A DNA stretch of 64,000 nucleotides from Chloroflexota bacterium (GTDB lineage Bacteria; Chloroflexota; Dehalococcoidia; Lucifugimonadales; Lucifugimonadaceae). The notes beneath the pieces are model-generated. The model had not been told where the DNA came from, ran no database searches, and saw only the letters and a program-made list of their open reading frames with translations. Of the stretch, positions 3,064-61,605 are shown one piece after another. The DNA lies in assembly GCA_002718415.1 (NCBI GenBank), contig PBEM01000006.1, positions 36,009 to 100,008 of the forward strand, in the 5' to 3' direction. Each line of letters opens with the position of its first letter. Within the stretch, counting starts at the first letter, position 1. The position numbers and the translations under genes were made by a program.

Positions 3064-3089
3064 TGTTTTGTTCTACTCCACCGTAACTG
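3056..3089 (-). repeat. direct repeat copy A: authentic glmS 3' end plus 13 nt (includes the GTG start of the OGFr-like gene)
   Basis: CAGTTACGGTGGAGTAGAACAAAACAGTGAATTA; see copy B at 2562-2595. Confidence 0.75.
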
Positions 3090-4926
3090 TTTTTGCTAAA
3101 TTTCTAGGTTTGTCAGGATCAAGATTTAAACTAATCGCTGTATGATAGGCAATAATTTGCAATGCAATAATAAATAGTATTGGAGATAAAAGATTATTAA
3201 TTTTTGGAACTACAATTAAATCATCTGATAATGTCCTTAAATCTTTAGAATTACTATCGGTAATTACAAGAGTTTTACTACCCCTAGCTTTAACTTCATT
3301 AATAGTTCCTAAATTCTTTTCAAATAATTCATCATCAGGAATTATAAGTATTGTCGGCATTTTTGAACCTAATAGAGCATTTACTCCATGCTTCATCTCT
3401 CCTGCAGGATAACCTTCTGCATGTAAATATGCTATTTCTTTCATTTTTAAAGCACCTTCTAATGCAGTAGAGATATTAATTCCTCTGCCAAGATATAAGA
3501 TATTAGAATAACCTGACATACTATTGCCTAATTTTTTTATCTCAGTTTCACAATTTAATACTTCAGAAATAGAAGAAGGTAATATAGAAATATCTTTTAT
3601 TAATGATGAAATTGTGTTCCCAACAGATTTATTTAAATCTAAATTAAAAAAAAGAGCTAATTGTATAAGAGTTACCATAGTAGATGTTAGCGTTTTAGTG
3701 GCAGCAACCCCTATCTCTTGTCCCGCTTTAATACGTATGGTAGAGTCAGAAATCCTTGATGCTTCAGTACCAAAAGATTCAACAATTGAAATAACTTTAC
3801 ATGATTTATTTTTGAAATGTTCTATTGCCGATAATGTATCTGCTGTTTCTCCAGATTGAGTTATAGCTATTAATAGTGTTTTATCGTCAATTACCGGATT
3901 TCTATATCTTAATTCAGAGGAATTTTCGGCTGAAGAAGCAATTCCTAATATATTTTCAAATATATATGCTCCATACATTGCAGCATGTAGTGAAGTTCCC
4001 ATACCAGTAAAAATTATCCTATTAAATTCAGATATATTAATTTCTTTATTATCTATCTCGGGTAATATAACAGTATTAGATGAAAAATTTATTCTTCCGG
4101 CAATAGATGATTGAATTGAATTTGGCTGTTCATTGATTTCTTTAATCATATAATGTGGATATTCTCCTTTATCAACATCATATTTATCTACTTCAATTTT
4201 TTGGGGAGATCTATCGATTTCTTCTAAATCTGAATTATATAATTTGTAATTTCGATTTGAAATTTTAATAATTTCTTGATTCTCTAAATATAAAATTTTA
4301 TTAGTTCTTGGTAATAAAGCAGATAAATCTGAAGATATATATGTAGCATTATCATCTAAACCAACAACTATTCCTCCTGCATTTCCTAATCGTATCCCAA
4401 TTATTTCTTCAGGATTTGATATTGATATTGCTAAAATAGAAGAATTACCTCTTATTACTTTTTTTAATTTCGAAACCGCCTTAAGTAAATTTTCTCCTTT
4501 TTTTATTTCATACGAAAGATAATTGGCTATAATTTCACTATCGGTCTGAGATGAAAACCTAATACCTAAACATTCTAGTTTTTGTTTAATTTCTAAGTAA
4601 TTTTCTATAATGCCATTATGAACTATTGCTACTGTATTGTCGGAATCTGAATGCGGATGAGAATTATTTTTTGAAATCTCACCATGTGTTGCCCATCTAG
4701 TATGACCAATTCCGATATTTCCATTAAATTTATTATCTTTTATACTTTTTGTTAATTTATCAATACTAGATTTATGTTCTCCAAATTTTGAAATGTTGAT
4801 ATTTCCAACATTATCAATAACTGCAATACCGGCAGAATCATAACCCCTATACTCTAAGGATCTTAACCCTTTAACAATTATCTGAGCGGCAGAATGTTCT
4901 CCAATATATCCATAAATTCCACACAT
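3073..4926 (-). CDS. glmS: glutamine--fructose-6-phosphate aminotransferase (isomerizing)
   Basis: 617 aa; MCGIYGYIG N-terminal Cys, GIGHTRWATHGE, two SIS domains, C-terminal PRNLAKTVTVE. Confidence 0.97.
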   Translation of the reverse strand: MCGIYGYIGEHSAAQIIVKGLRSLEYRGYDSAGIAVIDNVGNINISKFGEHKSSIDKLTKSIKDNKFNGNIGIGHTRWATHGEISKNNSHPHSDSDNTVAIVHNGIIENYLEIKQKLECLGIRFSSQTDSEIIANYLSYEIKKGENLLKAVSKLKKVIRGNSSILAISISNPEEIIGIRLGNAGGIVVGLDDNATYISSDLSALLPRTNKILYLENQEIIKISNRNYKLYNSDLEEIDRSPQKIEVDKYDVDKGEYPHYMIKEINEQPNSIQSSIAGRINFSSNTVILPEIDNKEINISEFNRIIFTGMGTSLHAAMYGAYIFENILGIASSAENSSELRYRNPVIDDKTLLIAITQSGETADTLSAIEHFKNKSCKVISIVESFGTEASRISDSTIRIKAGQEIGVAATKTLTSTMVTLIQLALFFNLDLNKSVGNTISSLIKDISILPSSISEVLNCETEIKKLGNSMSGYSNILYLGRGINISTALEGALKMKEIAYLHAEGYPAGEMKHGVNALLGSKMPTILIIPDDELFEKNLGTINEVKARGSKTLVITDSNSKDLRTLSDDLIVVPKINNLLSPILFIIALQIIAYHTAISLNLDPDKPRNLAKTVTVE

Positions 4927-34980: not shown

Positions 34981-35415
34981 TTAATTAGCAACTATATTTA
35001 CAAGTTTCCCCTTAATAAATATTTTTTTTCTAATAGTATTATTTATTAGAAATTTTTGTACTTTTTTACTCTCAACTGCTAATCTCAGGGCTTCTTCTTC
35101 TTTAATTGAACTTGAAACTTTTATTTGATCTCTAACTTTTCCATTAACTTGTATAACCAATGTAATATTTTCAGAAATGGTGTACAAATCATTATATTCT
35201 GGTACATTTTGTAAATGAATAGAATTATTATTGCCAATTCTATTCCAGATTTCCTCTGATATATAAGGTGCAATAGGTGCCATATGCAATATTAACCTTC
35301 TGATTGATTCATTCCAAAGTTTTTTAGAAATTTTAGCTTCTTCATAAATCTTATATAAAAAATTAGTGTATTCCATCATTGAAGCTATTGCTGTATTAAA
35401 TTTAAAAGATTCCAT
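34981..35415 (-). CDS. leuS: leucyl-tRNA synthetase, C-terminal (anticodon-binding) part, separated from the rest by an in-frame TAA
   Basis: SFKFNTAIASMMEYTNFLYK ... LHMAPIAPYISEEIWNRIG ... VNGKVRDQIKV; same frame as 35419-37428. Confidence 0.88.
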   Translation of the reverse strand: MESFKFNTAIASMMEYTNFLYKIYEEAKISKKLWNESIRRLILHMAPIAPYISEEIWNRIGNNNSIHLQNVPEYNDLYTISENITLVIQVNGKVRDQIKVSSSIKEEEALRLAVESKKVQKFLINNTIRKKIFIKGKLVNIVAN

Positions 35416-35418
35416 ATC

Positions 35419-37428
35419 TTAAAGTATTTTTTTAGTGGTTTTATGAGAAAAAACAATTAAAGTTTCATCCTTTTTTTGGTCTCCAACATCATTAAATTTT
35501 TTAATACTGATACTGATAGCCCAAACCCTATTTAACCATCGATATATACCATTAATTCCTGAATCAGACCAGTCCCCTCCTTGATCCCATGGACCCAAAA
35601 ACATTAAATACGATCTTAATGTATCAGAGCCATATTTTTGGATTACAGGATCAGGATTTAAAGGATTTGATCTTTTTGAAATTTTTTTATGATCTTTAAT
35701 CAACATTCCTTGATTGAAAAGTTTTGTATATGGTTCACTTATATTTACATAATTTAAATCTCTTAAAGCTTTGGTAAAAAACCTAGAATACAATAAATGC
35801 ATTACTGCGTGTTCCGCCCCGCCCATATACTGGTGAATTGGCCCCCAATTTATTAGATCTTCAGACCTAAAAGGAACATCTTTTGAGTCAGGACTCATAA
35901 ATTTGAAATGGTACCAAGAAGAATCCACAAACGTATCCATTGTATCCGTTTCTCTTTTAGCTTCATCACCACATTTTGGACATGTAGTATATAAAAATTC
36001 TTTATTAAGAGTCAAAGGAGATTTTCCAGTTGGATTAAATTCAACATTATCCGGCAATAAAACTGGTAGTTGATCAAAAGGCACTGGAACTGTTCCGCAT
36101 TGTTCACAATAAATTATTGGAATAGGTGTACCCCAATATCTTTGCCTAGAAATTAACCAATCTCTTAAATGATAAGTAATTGTCCTTGTTCCTAATTTTT
36201 TTTCCTCTATGAAATCAGCTATTGTATCTTTAGCAAGATTATTATTTAGTCCACTAAATTCTCCAGAATTAATTAAATTTCCTTCTTCCACCCAAGCTTC
36301 ATTAATATTAAAATTTTCCTCAGGTTTTACTACTACCCTTATTTCTAAGTTGTATTTTTCAGCAAAAATATAATCTCTTTGATCATGTGCAGGTACACCC
36401 ATTACAGCACCTGTACCATAACTAGATAATACATAGTCTCCAACATAAATAGGAATACGTTCATTGTTCAGAGGATTGATACAATACGCTCCTGTAAATA
36501 CTCCTGTTTTGTCTCTTTCAGTTGAAGTTCTTTCTATCTCAGAAATTCTTGCCGCATTTTCTATATAAGAATATACTGAATCTCTTTGTTCATCTTGGAT
36601 TATAGATTTCAAGATTTTATGTTCAGGAGATAACACAATAAAAGTGACCCCAAAAATAGTATCTATACGCGTAGTAAATGTTTCAATAAATTCACCTTCA
36701 ATAAATTCATCTAAATCAAATTTAATGGTCACACCTATAGATTTTCCTATCCAATTTCTCTGCATCATTTTTATTTTTTCTGGCCAATTTATCTTGCCCA
36801 TATCTAAAAGTTCTTCTGCATAATCAGTAATACGAAAAAACCATTGAGGCAATTCTTTTTTTAAAACTTCTGTACCGCATCTTTCACAACTACCATCCTT
36901 AACCTGCTCATTAGCAAGTGTTGTTTGATCTTTTGGACACCAATTTGCTAATCCAGAAGCCCTATATGCCAAATTATTATTATAAAATTCTAGAAAAAAA
37001 TGCTGATTCCATTTGTAATATTCTGGATCAGAAGTCACTAGTTCTCTTGACCAATCATATGATGTCCCCATAGATCTAAATTCTTTTCGAAAATTATTAA
37101 TATTTTCTAATGTCCATTTAGAAGGATTAATCCCATTTTCTATTGCTGCATTTTCTGCTGGTAGACCAAAAGAATCAAACCCTTGAGGATGCATTACATT
37201 ATAACCTTGCATTCTACGAAATCGAGCGTGAGCATCAGCTGGGGCAAATGCATACCAGTGACCAATATGTAAATTACCAGAAGGATATGGAAACATGCTT
37301 AATGCAAAATAATTTTCCTTGCCTTTAACATTATTTTTTGCATTATATATTCCATCTTCCTCCCACTTAACTGTCCATTTGTTCTCTATTAAAGACGGAT
37401 TATATTTCTCAAATTTATCAGACTCCAA
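35419..37428 (-). CDS. leuS: leucyl-tRNA synthetase, N-terminal/catalytic and editing part
   Basis: MFPYPSGNLHIGHW, NVMHPQGFDSFGLPAENAAIENG, TRIDTIFGVTFIVLSPEH, YLMFLGPWDQGGDWSDSGINGIYRWLNRVW. Confidence 0.93.
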   Translation of the reverse strand: MESDKFEKYNPSLIENKWTVKWEEDGIYNAKNNVKGKENYFALSMFPYPSGNLHIGHWYAFAPADAHARFRRMQGYNVMHPQGFDSFGLPAENAAIENGINPSKWTLENINNFRKEFRSMGTSYDWSRELVTSDPEYYKWNQHFFLEFYNNNLAYRASGLANWCPKDQTTLANEQVKDGSCERCGTEVLKKELPQWFFRITDYAEELLDMGKINWPEKIKMMQRNWIGKSIGVTIKFDLDEFIEGEFIETFTTRIDTIFGVTFIVLSPEHKILKSIIQDEQRDSVYSYIENAARISEIERTSTERDKTGVFTGAYCINPLNNERIPIYVGDYVLSSYGTGAVMGVPAHDQRDYIFAEKYNLEIRVVVKPEENFNINEAWVEEGNLINSGEFSGLNNNLAKDTIADFIEEKKLGTRTITYHLRDWLISRQRYWGTPIPIIYCEQCGTVPVPFDQLPVLLPDNVEFNPTGKSPLTLNKEFLYTTCPKCGDEAKRETDTMDTFVDSSWYHFKFMSPDSKDVPFRSEDLINWGPIHQYMGGAEHAVMHLLYSRFFTKALRDLNYVNISEPYTKLFNQGMLIKDHKKISKRSNPLNPDPVIQKYGSDTLRSYLMFLGPWDQGGDWSDSGINGIYRWLNRVWAISISIKKFNDVGDQKKDETLIVFSHKTTKKIL

Positions 37429-53692: not shown

Positions 53693-56600
53693 ATGCCAGA
53701 GACAGGTTTTAATGCTATAAAAATTTCACTTGCTTCACCTGACCAAATTCGCGCTTGGTCAAATGGTGAAGTCACAAAACCAGAAACAATTAATTATCGA
53801 ACTCTAAGACCTGAAAAAGATGGGTTGTTTTGTGAAAAAATATTTGGCCCCACAAAAGATTGGGAATGCTATTGTGGAAAATATAAAAAAATTAGATATC
53901 GTGGAGTTATTTGTGATAGATGTGGTGTTGAAGTAACAAGATCTAAAGTCAGAAGAGAAAGAATGGGACACATAAAACTTGCAGCCCCAGTTTCTCATAT
54001 TTGGTTTGCAAAAGGAACTCCTTCAAGAATTGGATTACTTCTAGATGTATCTCCAAAAAATCTTGAAAGAGTAATTTATTTTTCTCAATATATAATTACA
54101 TCAGTAAACGAAAACATAAAAGAAGAGGCTATTCAGAATTTAGAAGATTATCGCACTTCTGAAATTTCCAGGCTTGATGAAGAAAAACAAAAAGCTTTAG
54201 ATGAACTAAAACAAACTAAACAAAAAGATAAAATAAAAATTACTGATGAACTTGAATTAAATTACGAAAACCTAAAAAAAGAAATCGAGTATGATACTGA
54301 ACAAAAAATTATTGAAATTAATTCTATTAAAGAAATGGACCTTCTAACAGAAACAAGATTTAGAGAATTAAATGATAAAGCTAGCGGTGTATTTGTTGCA
54401 AGAATGGGTGCTGAAGCAGTAAAAGAACTTTTAGAAAAAATAGATCTAGAAAAATTAAGAACTACTTTAAAACATGAAATTATTTCTGCATCAGGACAAA
54501 AAAGACTTCGATCAATAAAAAGATTAAGAGTAGTTGAAGCTTTCCGTAAAGGAAGTAATAAACCTGAATGGATGATCCTAACTATTTTACCAGTGTTACC
54601 CCCAGATTTACACCCAATGGTTCAACTTGATGGAGGCAGATTTGCTACTAGTGATCTTAATGATCTATATAGAAGAGTAATAAATAGGAATAATAGATTA
54701 AGACATTTATTAGAATTACAGGCTCCAGATATTATTATTAGAAATGAAAAGAGAATGCTTCAAGAAGCTGTTGATGCTCTAATTGATAACGGTAGACGAG
54801 GAAGGCCAATTTCTGGTAGTCATAATCATAAATTAAAATCTTTAAGTGACCTTTTGCGTGGAAAACAAGGACGTTTCAGGCAAAATCTATTAGGAAAAAG
54901 GGTAGATTATTCTGGAAGATCAGTAATTATCTCAGGTCCAACTTTAAAATTAAATGAATGTGGATTACCTAGAAAGATGGCTTTGGAACTTTTTAAACCT
55001 TTTGTAATGAATTCATTAATTACCAGAGGTTACGCTCTAAATATCAAAAGTGCAAAAAAAATGTCTGAAAGTGGAATGCCAGAAGTACAAGATATTTTGG
55101 AAGAAGTTATCATAGATCATCCTGTTTTATTAAACCGAGCTCCAACACTTCATCGATTAGGAATACAAGCTTTTAATCCTGTTTTAGTTGATGGATTCGC
55201 AATACAATTACATCCATTAGTATGTACTGCCTTTAATGCAGATTTTGATGGAGATCAAATGGCAGTTCATGTCCCTTTATCAAAAGAAGCTATTATAGAA
55301 GCAAAAAAATTAATGATGTCTACAAATAACATGTTAGCTCCAAGTTCAGGATTTCCTATAGTTTCACCTACGCTGGATATGGTTTTAGGAATTTATTATT
55401 TAACTTCCTTTGAATTATCAGATGATGACGAAAATATAAAACATTTTTCTAGCCTACATGATACTAAACTAGCTCACGAAACTAAGAATATACGCATAAA
55501 AGAAAAGATTAAAGTCAATATTGATAATAACTGGATAGAGACAACTGTAGGAAGAATGATTTTTAATGAATGTCTACCTATAGAAGAATATCGGAATAAA
55601 ACATTTAATAGAGGTGAAATAGAAGATGTCGTTGCAGAAGTATTTAACCTTTTTGGAACTGAAGCAACTTCAAAAATGCTTGATGAAATGAAGGATGTTG
55701 GATTTAAATATGCCACTCAATCAGGAACTACAATAGCAATAAGAGATATTGTAACTCCTTCTAGTAAACAATCATTGCTGTCAAATGCGGATCAAAAAAT
55801 TCGAGGTTTAGACCAACAATACTTATCTGGCTTAATTACTGAAAAAGAAAGATATTCTGCATCTATAGATATTTGGACTGATGTTTCAGACAAAATGACA
55901 AAAGCTGTTAATGATAATTTGCCTGATTATCAGGGAATTTATACAATGGCTGATTCAGGAGCAAAAGGTAATATAGCTCAAATTAAGCAAATGGCCGGGA
56001 TGAGAGGTCTAATGTCGGATCCTAAAGGTAGAATTATTGATATGCCTATTAGGTCCAGTTTTGCTGAAGGTCTTTCAGTACTTGAATATTTTATCTCAAC
56101 TCATGGAGCTAGAAAAGGTTTAGCAGATACTGCACTAAGAACTGCTGACTCAGGGTATCTTACACGACGTTTAGCTGACGTAGCACAAGATGTAATAATA
56201 AATGATGATGATGATTTAAATGCTCAAGGATTCTTAATTCAAGATTCTGAAGAAAACAGTATGCAAGCTAGAATTTCTGAAAGAATTGTTAGTAGATTCC
56301 CTGCAGAAGACATTATTGATCCTAATACAGGAGAAGTATTAGCTGATCGAGATACACTAATTACCATGGAAATAGCAAAAAAAATCCAAGATGCTGGAAT
56401 TAAACAGTGTTATGTTTTATCACCCTTAAGTACTACTAGTCAAAAAGGTATTTCACAAAAATGTTATGGTGCTTCTTTGGCTACTGGAAATAAAGTTATG
56501 ATTGGTGAAGCTGTAGGTATAATGGCAGCACAATCAATTGGTGAACCAGGAACACAGCTTACAATGAGAACCTTCCATACAGGTGGAATTGCTGGTCAAG

Positions 56601-57787
56601 ACATTACTTCTGGACTTCCTAGGGTTGTAGAAATTTTTGAAGCAAGAACCCCAAAAGGTTGTGCTGTAATTGCAGATATTTCTGGTAAAGCAGAATTACA
56701 ACAATCCTCTGAAGGAAGATTAGTAAAGGTAGTATCATCTGAAAAACATGAAGAAGCTATCGAAATACCTACTGATACACATAAACAGTTGGTAAAAAGT
56801 GGCGAATGGGTAGATGCTGGACAACCAATTATAGGAATAAAGAAAACATTAAGTAAAACAGCTATTAAATCTATACTTGAAGAAAAACCAGAAAATTACC
56901 TTGCACCATTCCCTGGTACAGTTAATATCTCAAAGGGAATTGTTTATATAAATTGGGATGAATTAACAGAAAGGGAATATATTATCCCTGCAGCCGCAGA
57001 ATTATTGGTTAGTGATGGAGATGATATCAATGCTGGAGAAGCTTTATGTAGTGGACCTTTGAATCCACATGATATTTTAAGAATTAAGGGAGCTGCATCG
57101 TTACAAAGGTATATAGTAGATGAAGTACAGGCAGTATATAGATCTCAAGGTGTGAAATTACATGATAAACATATTGAGCTTATCGTAAGGCAAATGCTTC
57201 GTAAGGTAAGAATAGATAATCCAGGTTCATCAGACTTAATTCTTGGAGAGCTCGTTGATGCCACAGTATTTGAAACAGAAAACCAAAGAATTATAAGTAA
57301 TGGTGGAACTCCAGCTAATGCTAGCCCAATATTACTTGGTGTCACAAGGGCGTCATTAAATACAGATTCTTTCCTCTCAGCGGCATCATTCCAAGAAACT
57401 GCTCGGGTACTAACTGAGGCAGCTGTAACAAGTTCTACCGATCAATTAAATGGTTTAAAAGAAAATGTAATCATTGGACGCCTTATCCCTGCCAGATTAG
57501 ATCAAACTAATGAAGGTAGAAATAGATTAGGAGTTGAAGAATCATCAACAGGAGGTCTAACAGGTATAACGAAAGGTCCTCAAACTTTTGAAGAAGCTGT
57601 TGCTTTAATGGCAGGAGAAAATATTTCTTCTGAAACTATCAATAATTCTGATACAGATATTAATATCTCTTCTGAAGAAGCGCAAAAAGCTGCTATGGCT
57701 ATGCAAGAAAGTGTTAGTAATGATGATTCAGAAATTGAAAAATTAGCTGATGCTTTCTTTGAATCTGAAGATAATAATGATGAATAA
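53693..57787 (+). CDS. rpoC: RNA polymerase subunit beta'
   Basis: [59 protein letters not shown]. Confidence 0.98.
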
Positions 57788-57955: not shown

Positions 57956-58264
57956 TTAAATAAAAAATTCAAATACCCAAATTATTGTTAGTCCAACCAA
58001 AAGTGTAAGTACTATTGATTTGGATAATAATGCAACAAACATTGCAATCAGAGCAGCAAAAATATTAGGATTATTTAAAATAATAGAATTTTCTTCATTA
58101 ATTAATATTGAATTTATAATGATTGGTGTTAAAACAGCTATGGATACATAACCTAATCCACCTTGAATAAAATTTGGTAAAGTTTTCGGCATTATCTTAG
58201 ATAAAGGTAAAAATCTAGTACAAAAAGTTAGTACCCCAGAAAAAATAATAACTGTCCAAATCAT
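57956..58264 (-). CDS. azlD: AzlD family branched-chain amino acid exporter small subunit
   Basis: 102 aa hydrophobic; TFCTRFLPLS; directly downstream of azlC-like gene. Confidence 0.82.
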   Translation of the reverse strand: MIWTVIIFSGVLTFCTRFLPLSKIMPKTLPNFIQGGLGYVSIAVLTPIIINSILINEENSIILNNPNIFAALIAMFVALLSKSIVLTLLVGLTIIWVFEFFI

Positions 58265-58954
58265 TTATTTTGTCCTTATTTTATTAGAAATTAACATACC
58301 AAACAAAATAGCAATTAATGCAGAAAAAATAATCCATAAATTCCAGGGCAAATCTTTAAAAGCTACTGATAACACTGCACTAGTTATAAAAACACTAAAT
58401 TTTATTTTATCTTTAATTGAAATTACTACTATTGCTATAAAGGAAAGCGGAATAGCAAATTCTAAATTTAGAGATTCTGGAATGAAATGCCCTATGAATA
58501 TTCCTAGAAAAGTTGCAATTTGCCATGATGTCCATAAGGTTAGTCCACTACCTAATAAATGGTAATGCATATTTTTTGTTTTTTTCTTTTCAGAAAAACG
58601 CTTATATGAAACTGCATAGGCTTCATCTGTAATTAAGTATGCTAGTATTAATCTCCATCCAAGAGTTAAATTCTTTAAATATCCCGATAAAGAAATCCCA
58701 TATAAAATATGGCGTAAATTTACAATTCCTACAGTACCTACAATGATTGATGCAGGAGTAGAAGTAAATATTAGTTGAGCAAAAACAATTTGACTGGCAC
58801 CAGCAAATACTATTGAAGATAGTAGAAAAGTTTGTATATTACTTAGCCCGCACTCTATACCTAAAATTCCAAATGCAAGTCCAAAAGGAAAAACACCAAT
58901 TTGTAAAGGGATTTCTCCAAAACATCCATCCTTGAATTCTGAGAATTTTGTCAT
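58265..58954 (-). CDS. azlC: AzlC family ABC/branched-chain amino acid permease
   Basis: PLQIGVFPFGLAFGILGIECGL, AGASQIVFAQLI, NLRHILYGISLS, TDEAYAV. Confidence 0.9.
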   Translation of the reverse strand: MTKFSEFKDGCFGEIPLQIGVFPFGLAFGILGIECGLSNIQTFLLSSIVFAGASQIVFAQLIFTSTPASIIVGTVGIVNLRHILYGISLSGYLKNLTLGWRLILAYLITDEAYAVSYKRFSEKKKTKNMHYHLLGSGLTLWTSWQIATFLGIFIGHFIPESLNLEFAIPLSFIAIVVISIKDKIKFSVFITSAVLSVAFKDLPWNLWIIFSALIAILFGMLISNKIRTK

Positions 58955-58964
58955 TATAAAAAAT

Positions 58965-59005
58965 TATCGCCCACTATTATGAATCATAGATCTAAGTGGG
59001 CGATA
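58965..59005 (-). terminator. perfect 11-bp inverted repeat with U-run on the minus strand, directly upstream of azlC
   Basis: TATCGCCCACT ... 19 nt ... AGTGGGCGATA, followed on the minus strand by ATTTTTTATA then the azlC ATG. Confidence 0.6.
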
Positions 59006-59024
59006 TAAATTTCCAATTAATGAA

Positions 59025-59669
59025 TTATGATTTGCTTCTAATTACAGCTATTCCTAGTAAAGTACTAAATATAACCCAACCAAACCAACTAAGCATTCCC
59101 GTTATATCTTGCATAGTAAACACATTAACAATATTGGCTATACCAACTATAAGAAAACCAAAACTTACAATATTTAATAATATCGCTGGTTCTAATTTAT
59201 TCTTTGCATCCCTAATAGCTCTACCTAAAGCTATTAAAGCTATACCAAACACTATATCCATTGCACCTAAATCCGTAGTACCTGCTACAAATATAGTCAA
59301 AGCTTCTGCAGGTTCAGTTCCATGATAAGAAAGTGCACTAACAAAAGAATTAGCGCCAAATAAGTTAATTGTCCCAGAAATTAAAAGTAGTAAAGCTGAA
59401 AGGTTACCTAGAAACGGATTATCACTATCAGCACCAACACCTCTAGAAAACATAACGAAAGAGGCAACTACAAAGGTAAAGCTCACTCCAGCAATACTGA
59501 TTAATAATTTATTAATTGTTGCACTTTCTGCTATTTTATCAAGAAAAGCTTTAGGGCCATCATCTCCACCTCCTCCAACTCCCATCCAAATATACATCCA
59601 TAAAGCTGTCATAAGAATTGGTAAGATAGCTAAACTCCATCCAATAAATGTTTTTTGTGTAATATTCAT
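59025..59669 (-). CDS. hypothetical multi-pass membrane protein
   Basis: 214 aa, about five hydrophobic segments; no family recognised. Confidence 0.7.
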   Translation of the reverse strand: MNITQKTFIGWSLAILPILMTALWMYIWMGVGGGGDDGPKAFLDKIAESATINKLLISIAGVSFTFVVASFVMFSRGVGADSDNPFLGNLSALLLLISGTINLFGANSFVSALSYHGTEPAEALTIFVAGTTDLGAMDIVFGIALIALGRAIRDAKNKLEPAILLNIVSFGFLIVGIANIVNVFTMQDITGMLSWFGWVIFSTLLGIAVIRSKS

Positions 59670-59818
59670 AAAATAATCCCCTTCTGTTTTATAAAATTAT
59701 AATTAGCATTGTAGCAGTACTCTAAAATATTCAATAAATAAATTAATATATTATTTTAAAATTAAGACAATTTACTAGTAAAATATTTTTAATAATTATC
59801 CTAATAACTCAGTAATAA

Positions 59819-59959
59819 ATGAAACAATTTAAGTGGAATGGCATACCGGTAAATATACCAAACTCAAATAAAGAATGGATTTTTTTTATATTAATTACTT
59901 TTTTATCATCGATTATTTCAATAGTAATAATAATTAATATCTTATTTTTAAATAATTGA
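59819..59959 (+). CDS. small (46 aa) putative membrane protein MKQFKWNGIPVNIPNSNKEWIFFILITFLSSIISIVIIINILFLNN
   Basis: Complete ORF with one strong TM helix; stop overlaps the TTG start of the sulfatase ORF; not in the supplied track. Confidence 0.45.
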   Translation: MKQFKWNGIPVNIPNSNKEWIFFILITFLSSIISIVIIINILFLNN

Positions 59960-61605
59960 AAAATATAATGCTAGAAAAAAAACCAAATATATTATTTATA
60001 ATGGCAGATCAAATGAAATCTTCTATTTTAAAGATGTATTCAGAAATTGGAATAGAATGCCCTCAATTAGAAAAACTTGCACGTGAAGGTGTACTCTACC
60101 AAAATGCATTTACCCCACATCCATTATGTGTCCCAGCTAGAACTTCTATGATGACCGGTAAATATCCACATAAAACTGGTTGCAGAAGAAATGAAACATT
60201 AATGCCTGAAAATGAATTACATGCTTTTAAAATTTGGAAAAAGCTAAATTATGTAACAGGATTAATTGGGAAAAATCACTGTTTTGACAAACAATCAGAT
60301 TTAGATTTGTTTGATGTAAGATTAGAAATATCACATAGAGGACTTCCAAGAAGTGGTTACAAAGGAGAAAATATTGGAAATAAAGGTATGGAATGGATCG
60401 TAGACGAAAAGTTAATTAATGAAGCTAATAATAATCGATTGGAAATGGGTATTTGGGATAAAACACACTTCTCTTCTGATACCCCCGAAGAATTATTTCC
60501 AACTTCATTAATTACAAAACAAACTGAAAAATTTCTAGAAGAATATTCTGCTGGAGAATTTGGGAAAACCGATAATCCTTTTTCATTATGGGTTTCTTTC
60601 CCTGATCCACACGAACCTTATATAGCTCCTTCTAGATACGTAAATATGTTCCCTTCAGAAAAAGTTGTTCTTCCTAATAATCGAGAAGATGAATTCACAG
60701 ATGGAACAGCCCCTGAAAGAAATAGATTATTGTATAAAATATTGAAACATAATACAAATTCTGAAGAAGAAATCAGATCTCAAATAAGTGTTTATCAAGC
60801 TATGACGAAATTTATTGACGACGGAATAAAAAAAATTATAGAAAAACTTGATACTTTAGGATTAAAAGAAAATACTATAATAGTCTTCACTTCTGATCAT
60901 GGAGATTTCATGGGAGAACACGGAATGACTGTTAAGGGAGGTGTGTTTTATGACTGTCTAGTAAAAGTTCCACTAATAATTTCTTGGCCAAATGGAAAAT
61001 TTGATACAGGAGTTATTGATGAATCTATGGTAAATACTATAGATATTTTACCTACATTATTATTTTTACAAGGTTTAGGGGATTTTAAGAATTTAGGAAA
61101 AGGATGGACTAATAACAATCAAAAGAAAGATAAATTTCTAAATGAATATGAAATGAGAAGTTTTGATGGAAAATTATTACCCTCCATTACAAATTCAAAA
61201 CCTTCGGAAGTTGCTTTTTCCGAATATGGCGCTGGAGGTCCTCAATATAAACTTGAAGATTTAAATAAAATAAATAAACCTTATGGTCATAAAACTCTAC
61301 TAGAAACACTTTGGGCAAGAGAATCAGAAGGAAAAAGAAGGATGGTAAGAACTAAAGATTGGAAATATATTACTGATATAAATGCAAAAGGCCATACTAT
61401 AAGTTCAGCTATTGATGGTGGACCTGGAGATATAGACGAATTATATGATCTTAAAAATGATCCATGGGAACTGTATAATATAGCCCAAAATCCTAAATAT
61501 AAAGAAGTTATTGTACAGATGAAAGAACATTTATTAGAATGGATGATAGATACTGAAGACTATAAACCAGTAGAAATACCAAATAAAATAGGAATAAATT
61601 TTTAA
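59956..61605 (+). CDS. type I sulfatase (Cys-type), TTG start at 59956 or ATG at 59968
   Basis: KPNILFIMADQ; formylglycine motif CVPARTSMMTGKYPHKTG; TSDHGDFMGEHGM. Confidence 0.92.
   Translation: MKNIMLEKKPNILFIMADQMKSSILKMYSEIGIECPQLEKLAREGVLYQNAFTPHPLCVPARTSMMTGKYPHKTGCRRNETLMPENELHAFKIWKKLNYVTGLIGKNHCFDKQSDLDLFDVRLEISHRGLPRSGYKGENIGNKGMEWIVDEKLINEANNNRLEMGIWDKTHFSSDTPEELFPTSLITKQTEKFLEEYSAGEFGKTDNPFSLWVSFPDPHEPYIAPSRYVNMFPSEKVVLPNNREDEFTDGTAPERNRLLYKILKHNTNSEEEIRSQISVYQAMTKFIDDGIKKIIEKLDTLGLKENTIIVFTSDHGDFMGEHGMTVKGGVFYDCLVKVPLIISWPNGKFDTGVIDESMVNTIDILPTLLFLQGLGDFKNLGKGWTNNNQKKDKFLNEYEMRSFDGKLLPSITNSKPSEVAFSEYGAGGPQYKLEDLNKINKPYGHKTLLETLWARESEGKRRMVRTKDWKYITDINAKGHTISSAIDGGPGDIDELYDLKNDPWELYNIAQNPKYKEVIVQMKEHLLEWMIDTEDYKPVEIPNKIGINF

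Follow-up and report, generated by a model that had tools for sequence, protein, structure and literature searches.

LeuRS is essential, and in Aquifex aeolicus it is encoded by two separate genes, with the break in the CP1 editing region. Its composition of two subunits was described by Xu et al. 2002, as cited in PMC3436685. The leuS gene analysed here resembles that system in encoding LeuRS as two reading frames, but its break lies instead in the anticodon-binding bundle, amounts to one stop codon within an unchanged frame and is private to one assembly. The CP1 editing domain (residues 224-407) is intact and the break is located at residue 670, so that the difference from the Aquifex split pointed out in the original prediction holds.

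The gene is part of a window of 64,000 nucleotides, the whole stretch of DNA that was analysed, from a metagenome-assembled genome (MAG) of an uncultured bacterium. This bin (G000) comprises 15 contigs with a total length of 1.06 Mb, is 74% complete and is identified by its relatives as marine SAR202-type (Chloroflexota, Dehalococcoidia). The encoded protein matches Thermus thermophilus LeuRS (PDB 1h3n) over almost its full length and has the same catalytic, editing and anticodon-binding domains. With the stop read as X it scores 981.8 bits against the family profile TIGR00396 leuS_bact, for which the cut-off is 548.4. It differs from bacterial LeuRS (TIGR00396; PDB 1h3n) by the in-frame TAA at codon 670, which leaves the frame interrupted in the window assembly. 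A second difference is shared with SAR202 relatives: in LeuRS of this group, including that of the window (34981-37428), the ~60-residue insertion before the KMSKS motif is missing, and the motif reads KISKR.

The interrupted leuS gene

leuS lies on the minus strand at 37428-34981, with a TTG start at 37428 and a terminal TAA at 34983-34981. The assembled sequence contains one in-frame TAA within the gene, at 35419-35421 (codon 670), where the minus strand reads AAA AAA ATA CTT TAA GAT ATG GAA TCT TTT and the frame is identical on both sides. The 669-codon ORF (35419-37428) and the 144-codon ORF (34981-35415) share this frame and combine to an 815-residue LeuRS, which aligns with its relatives over the full span. 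This is exactly the reading of the gene and its single stop given by the original prediction. Slippage on the preceding A7 run was rejected as an explanation, since there is no frame shift between the halves that a single slip could correct. The features of the locus are as follows.

35422..37428, minus strand: upstream part of leuS, 669 codons from the TTG start, comprising the catalytic and CP1 editing domains plus helices 1 and 2 of the anticodon-binding bundle
35419..35421, minus strand: in-frame TAA as codon 670, where the sister species has GAA
35413..35415, minus strand: ATG (Met672) at which translation might restart, likewise ATG in G001 and G002 and not preceded by a Shine-Dalgarno sequence
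34981..35415, minus strand: downstream part of leuS, 144 codons plus stop, with the remaining anticodon-binding bundle and the C-terminal domain
Codons around the stop, minus strand: CTT 35424-35422, TAA 35421-35419, GAT 35418-35416, ATG 35415-35413

The break had initially been placed in a helical linker between the catalytic and anticodon-binding domains, which proved inaccurate. The catalytic, CP1 editing and anticodon-binding domains are all present in the protein (PF00133, PF13603 and PF08264 were found), and Pfam Anticodon_1, at residues 660-779, encloses the stop. An AlphaFold2 model, for which the window protein with the stop read as Glu and 36 relatives served as input (mean pLDDT 88), places residue 670 near the end of the second helix (651-673) in the anticodon-binding bundle and the break near the loop between bundle helices 2 and 3. 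As both the Pfam domain and the modelled helix enclose residue 670, the break lies inside the anticodon-binding domain. The residue is highly variable, being A, T, S, E, D, N, Q, G, L, H, K, V or R in relatives.

Distribution of the stop and constraint on the gene

In the sister species (G001; 87% protein identity), which is collinear with most of the window, the site reads TTG GAA GAT ATG GAA and the frame is open. This agrees with the GAA ancestor that had been proposed from the window sequence, as one G-to-T change on the coding strand explains the TAA. A stop at codon 670 was found in 1 of 105 leuS alignments, a set that contains duplicate copies of some genes present in two collections; the one case is the window gene, while ~100 other SAR202/Dehalococcoidia leuS loci have a sense codon. 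A lineage-wide split or recoding was rejected on the same grounds, the stop being shared by no relative. An exact-pattern scan over viral contigs yielded no match, and literature searches on this LeuRS split point returned nothing.

The two parts of the gene were compared with their counterparts in the sister species. Between the two bins dN is 0.067 for the N part and 0.104 for the C part, with dS ~0.95 in both, and the resulting C/N ratio of 1.56 is close to the control median of 1.52 from 113 pairs of intact leuS genes, which share species and hence are not independent. Derived amino acid changes in the C part number 12 in G000 and 11 in G001, those in the N part 31 and 41, respectively. 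Judged by these substitutions, the downstream 144 codons are not decaying and evolve as any leuS C-terminus. A long-silenced C part would show an excess of changes on the G000 side; the stop is recent, spurious or decoded, or the C part is still made. The normal constraint on the downstream part rules against an old pseudogene.

A second leuS elsewhere in the genome had been listed among the possible explanations, and a search of the bin revealed one other LeuRS, 47% identical, on contig C1 (L133, G000:C1:1-18709). This contig has a GC content of 53%, against 30% for the window's contig, contains 210 Ns and encodes archaeal-type ribosomal proteins S4 and S13 together with RNA polymerase subunit D. 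C1 is very probably an archaeal binning contaminant, which leaves the interrupted gene as the only LeuRS recovered for the organism; a rescue of function by the second leuS was rejected because its contig is archaeal. The LeuRS on this archaeal contig is itself bacterial-type, with a long C-terminal extension. Nearly all members of the class have a single leuS.

Sporadic breaks in related assemblies

When 207 genes on the contig of the window were set against the sister species, no clean nonsense codon in the middle of a G000 gene emerged other than that in leuS. One more stop, close to the beginning of an ORF of 248 codons, is likely spurious, and G000 frameshifts were seen in a HAD-like gene and, next to an ambiguous base, in a prephenate dehydratase-like gene. 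The sister assembly has comparable breaks. Its rpoC (L120, G001:C26 about 52010) carries an in-frame TAG at the conserved Trp of KPEWMIL..., directly followed by an ATG, and its D-2-hydroxyacid dehydrogenase-like gene contains two stops; one homopolymer frameshift is also present. The window orthologue of this rpoC (53693-57787) is intact, and the stop flagged in rpoC of G025 sits in an alignment gap and is not counted here. Besides that of the window, the lone stops among the ~150 Dehalococcoidia leuS matches listed are a TAG at Tyr155 in G229 and a TAG at Gln142 in G197. The leuS stop of G017 does not count as a comparable case, as it arises from a homopolymer frameshift in an A run. Two more genes with a lone interior stop were found among 75 neighbouring loci. 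An ATG directly after the stop was seen in the sister rpoC, while the other stops lacked it.

These sporadic single-base breaks in MAGs (rpoC of G001, leuS of G229 and G197, L065 and L116) have in common with the window gene one private stop in a gene that is otherwise intact and conserved; the stop codon and its position vary from case to case. Breaks at varied places, with varied stop codons and partly in essential genes, form a pattern typical of consensus noise or of rare alleles and not of a conserved mechanism. The TAA of the window, a private single-base change with comparable breaks in sister assemblies, conforms to this pattern.

Outside the window, ambiguous bases occur in clusters on its contig; upstream of it, G000:C6:3498-4876 contains 98 single Ns in 1.4 kb, as if divergent sequences had been merged. 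A published pipeline joins contigs from different samples at 95% identity using Minimus2 (PMC5769542) and is taken to be the one behind G001; that the window's own bin also came from a merging pipeline of the Minimus2 type is only a guess, judged by the scattered Ns. Two further regions of the window stand out in the comparison with the sister species. The DNA of a glmS-like gene (3073-4926) is 99.5% identical to the end of G001 contig C26, compared with ~78-88% for the compared neighbours, indicating either recent recombination or a chimeric contig end. Four ORFs downstream of rpoC, at 57956-61605, lack a match on the collinear contig of G001; two of them form an AzlCD-like transporter pair, and the others encode a membrane protein and a sulfatase-like product.

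We infer that the TAA is an artefact or a rare allele, because it is private, the sister species having GAA and all other leuS loci examined having a sense codon there, because the normally constrained downstream part has not been silent for long, because the bin holds no other genuine leuS for an essential enzyme, because private single-base breaks hit essential genes of related bins too, and because ambiguous-base clusters occur on the contig, albeit outside the window. In all likelihood, the organism would have an ordinary, continuous bacterial LeuRS, and the TAA would be a sporadic change of one base in the consensus assembled from the metagenome, caused by a sequencing or consensus error or by a rare population nonsense allele caught in the consensus. 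Some observations count against an error or rare allele: no ambiguous base of the window lies near the site, the stop falls at a tolerant spot (a variable residue close to the end of a helix), and an ATG follows two codons after the stop, as an ATG also follows the rpoC stop of the sister species. The original prediction had listed four options, an error, read-through, re-initiation and a second leuS, with no preference among them; the tests favour the error, here extended to a rare allele, and disfavour the others.

Alternative readings of the two frames

A real split LeuRS, in which ribosomes would terminate at the TAA and start again 3 nt further on, at the ATG, to give chains of 669 and 144 residues that assemble into one enzyme, appears improbable. 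The TAA-N3-ATG spacing, the normal constraint on both parts and the position of the break near the loop between bundle helices 2 and 3 would suit such an enzyme, but the break divides the helices of the bundle between the two chains, and no relative has the arrangement. As Met672 is also an ATG in the intact G001 and G002, the ATG did not evolve as a restart, and no Shine-Dalgarno sequence was found before it (AAAAAAATACTTTAAGAT). The chance that a leuS codon has an ATG within the next two codons is ~4%, which makes the spacing mildly suggestive at most. With neither a ribosome-binding signal nor a conserved arrangement found, the re-initiation proposed earlier has no positive evidence in its favour. 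There is a slim chance that a two-polypeptide LeuRS is made from one mRNA by TAA-N3-ATG termination-reinitiation, split in the anticodon-binding bundle and fixed in one SAR202 species.

It is very unlikely that the gene is a true recent pseudogene whose work is done by another leuS of the organism, missing from the 74% complete bin. The incompleteness of the bin and the presence of the second LeuRS on C1 leave room for this reading, whereas the archaeal genes, deviating GC content and Ns of C1, the single leuS of nearly all class members and the absence of decay in either part of the gene argue against it. Read-through, with the TAA decoded as an amino acid to yield full-length LeuRS, would be compatible with the many amino acids tolerated at residue 670 and with the constraint downstream, but is most unlikely. 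TAA is the usual terminator (157 of 216 ORFs on the contig, 73%), and a stop-reading anticodon was absent from all tRNA genes found in this bin, which is 74% complete, so that general read-through of TAA is implausible; the stop occurs in no relative, and a read-through signal was not identified.

If real, the split would be at a new point for an essential synthetase and a rare example from nature of a core enzyme rebuilt by coupled re-initiation. The more likely lesson is that a lone stop in an essential gene of a MAG, such as those in leuS here and in rpoC of the sister bin, should not be taken as biology without read support.
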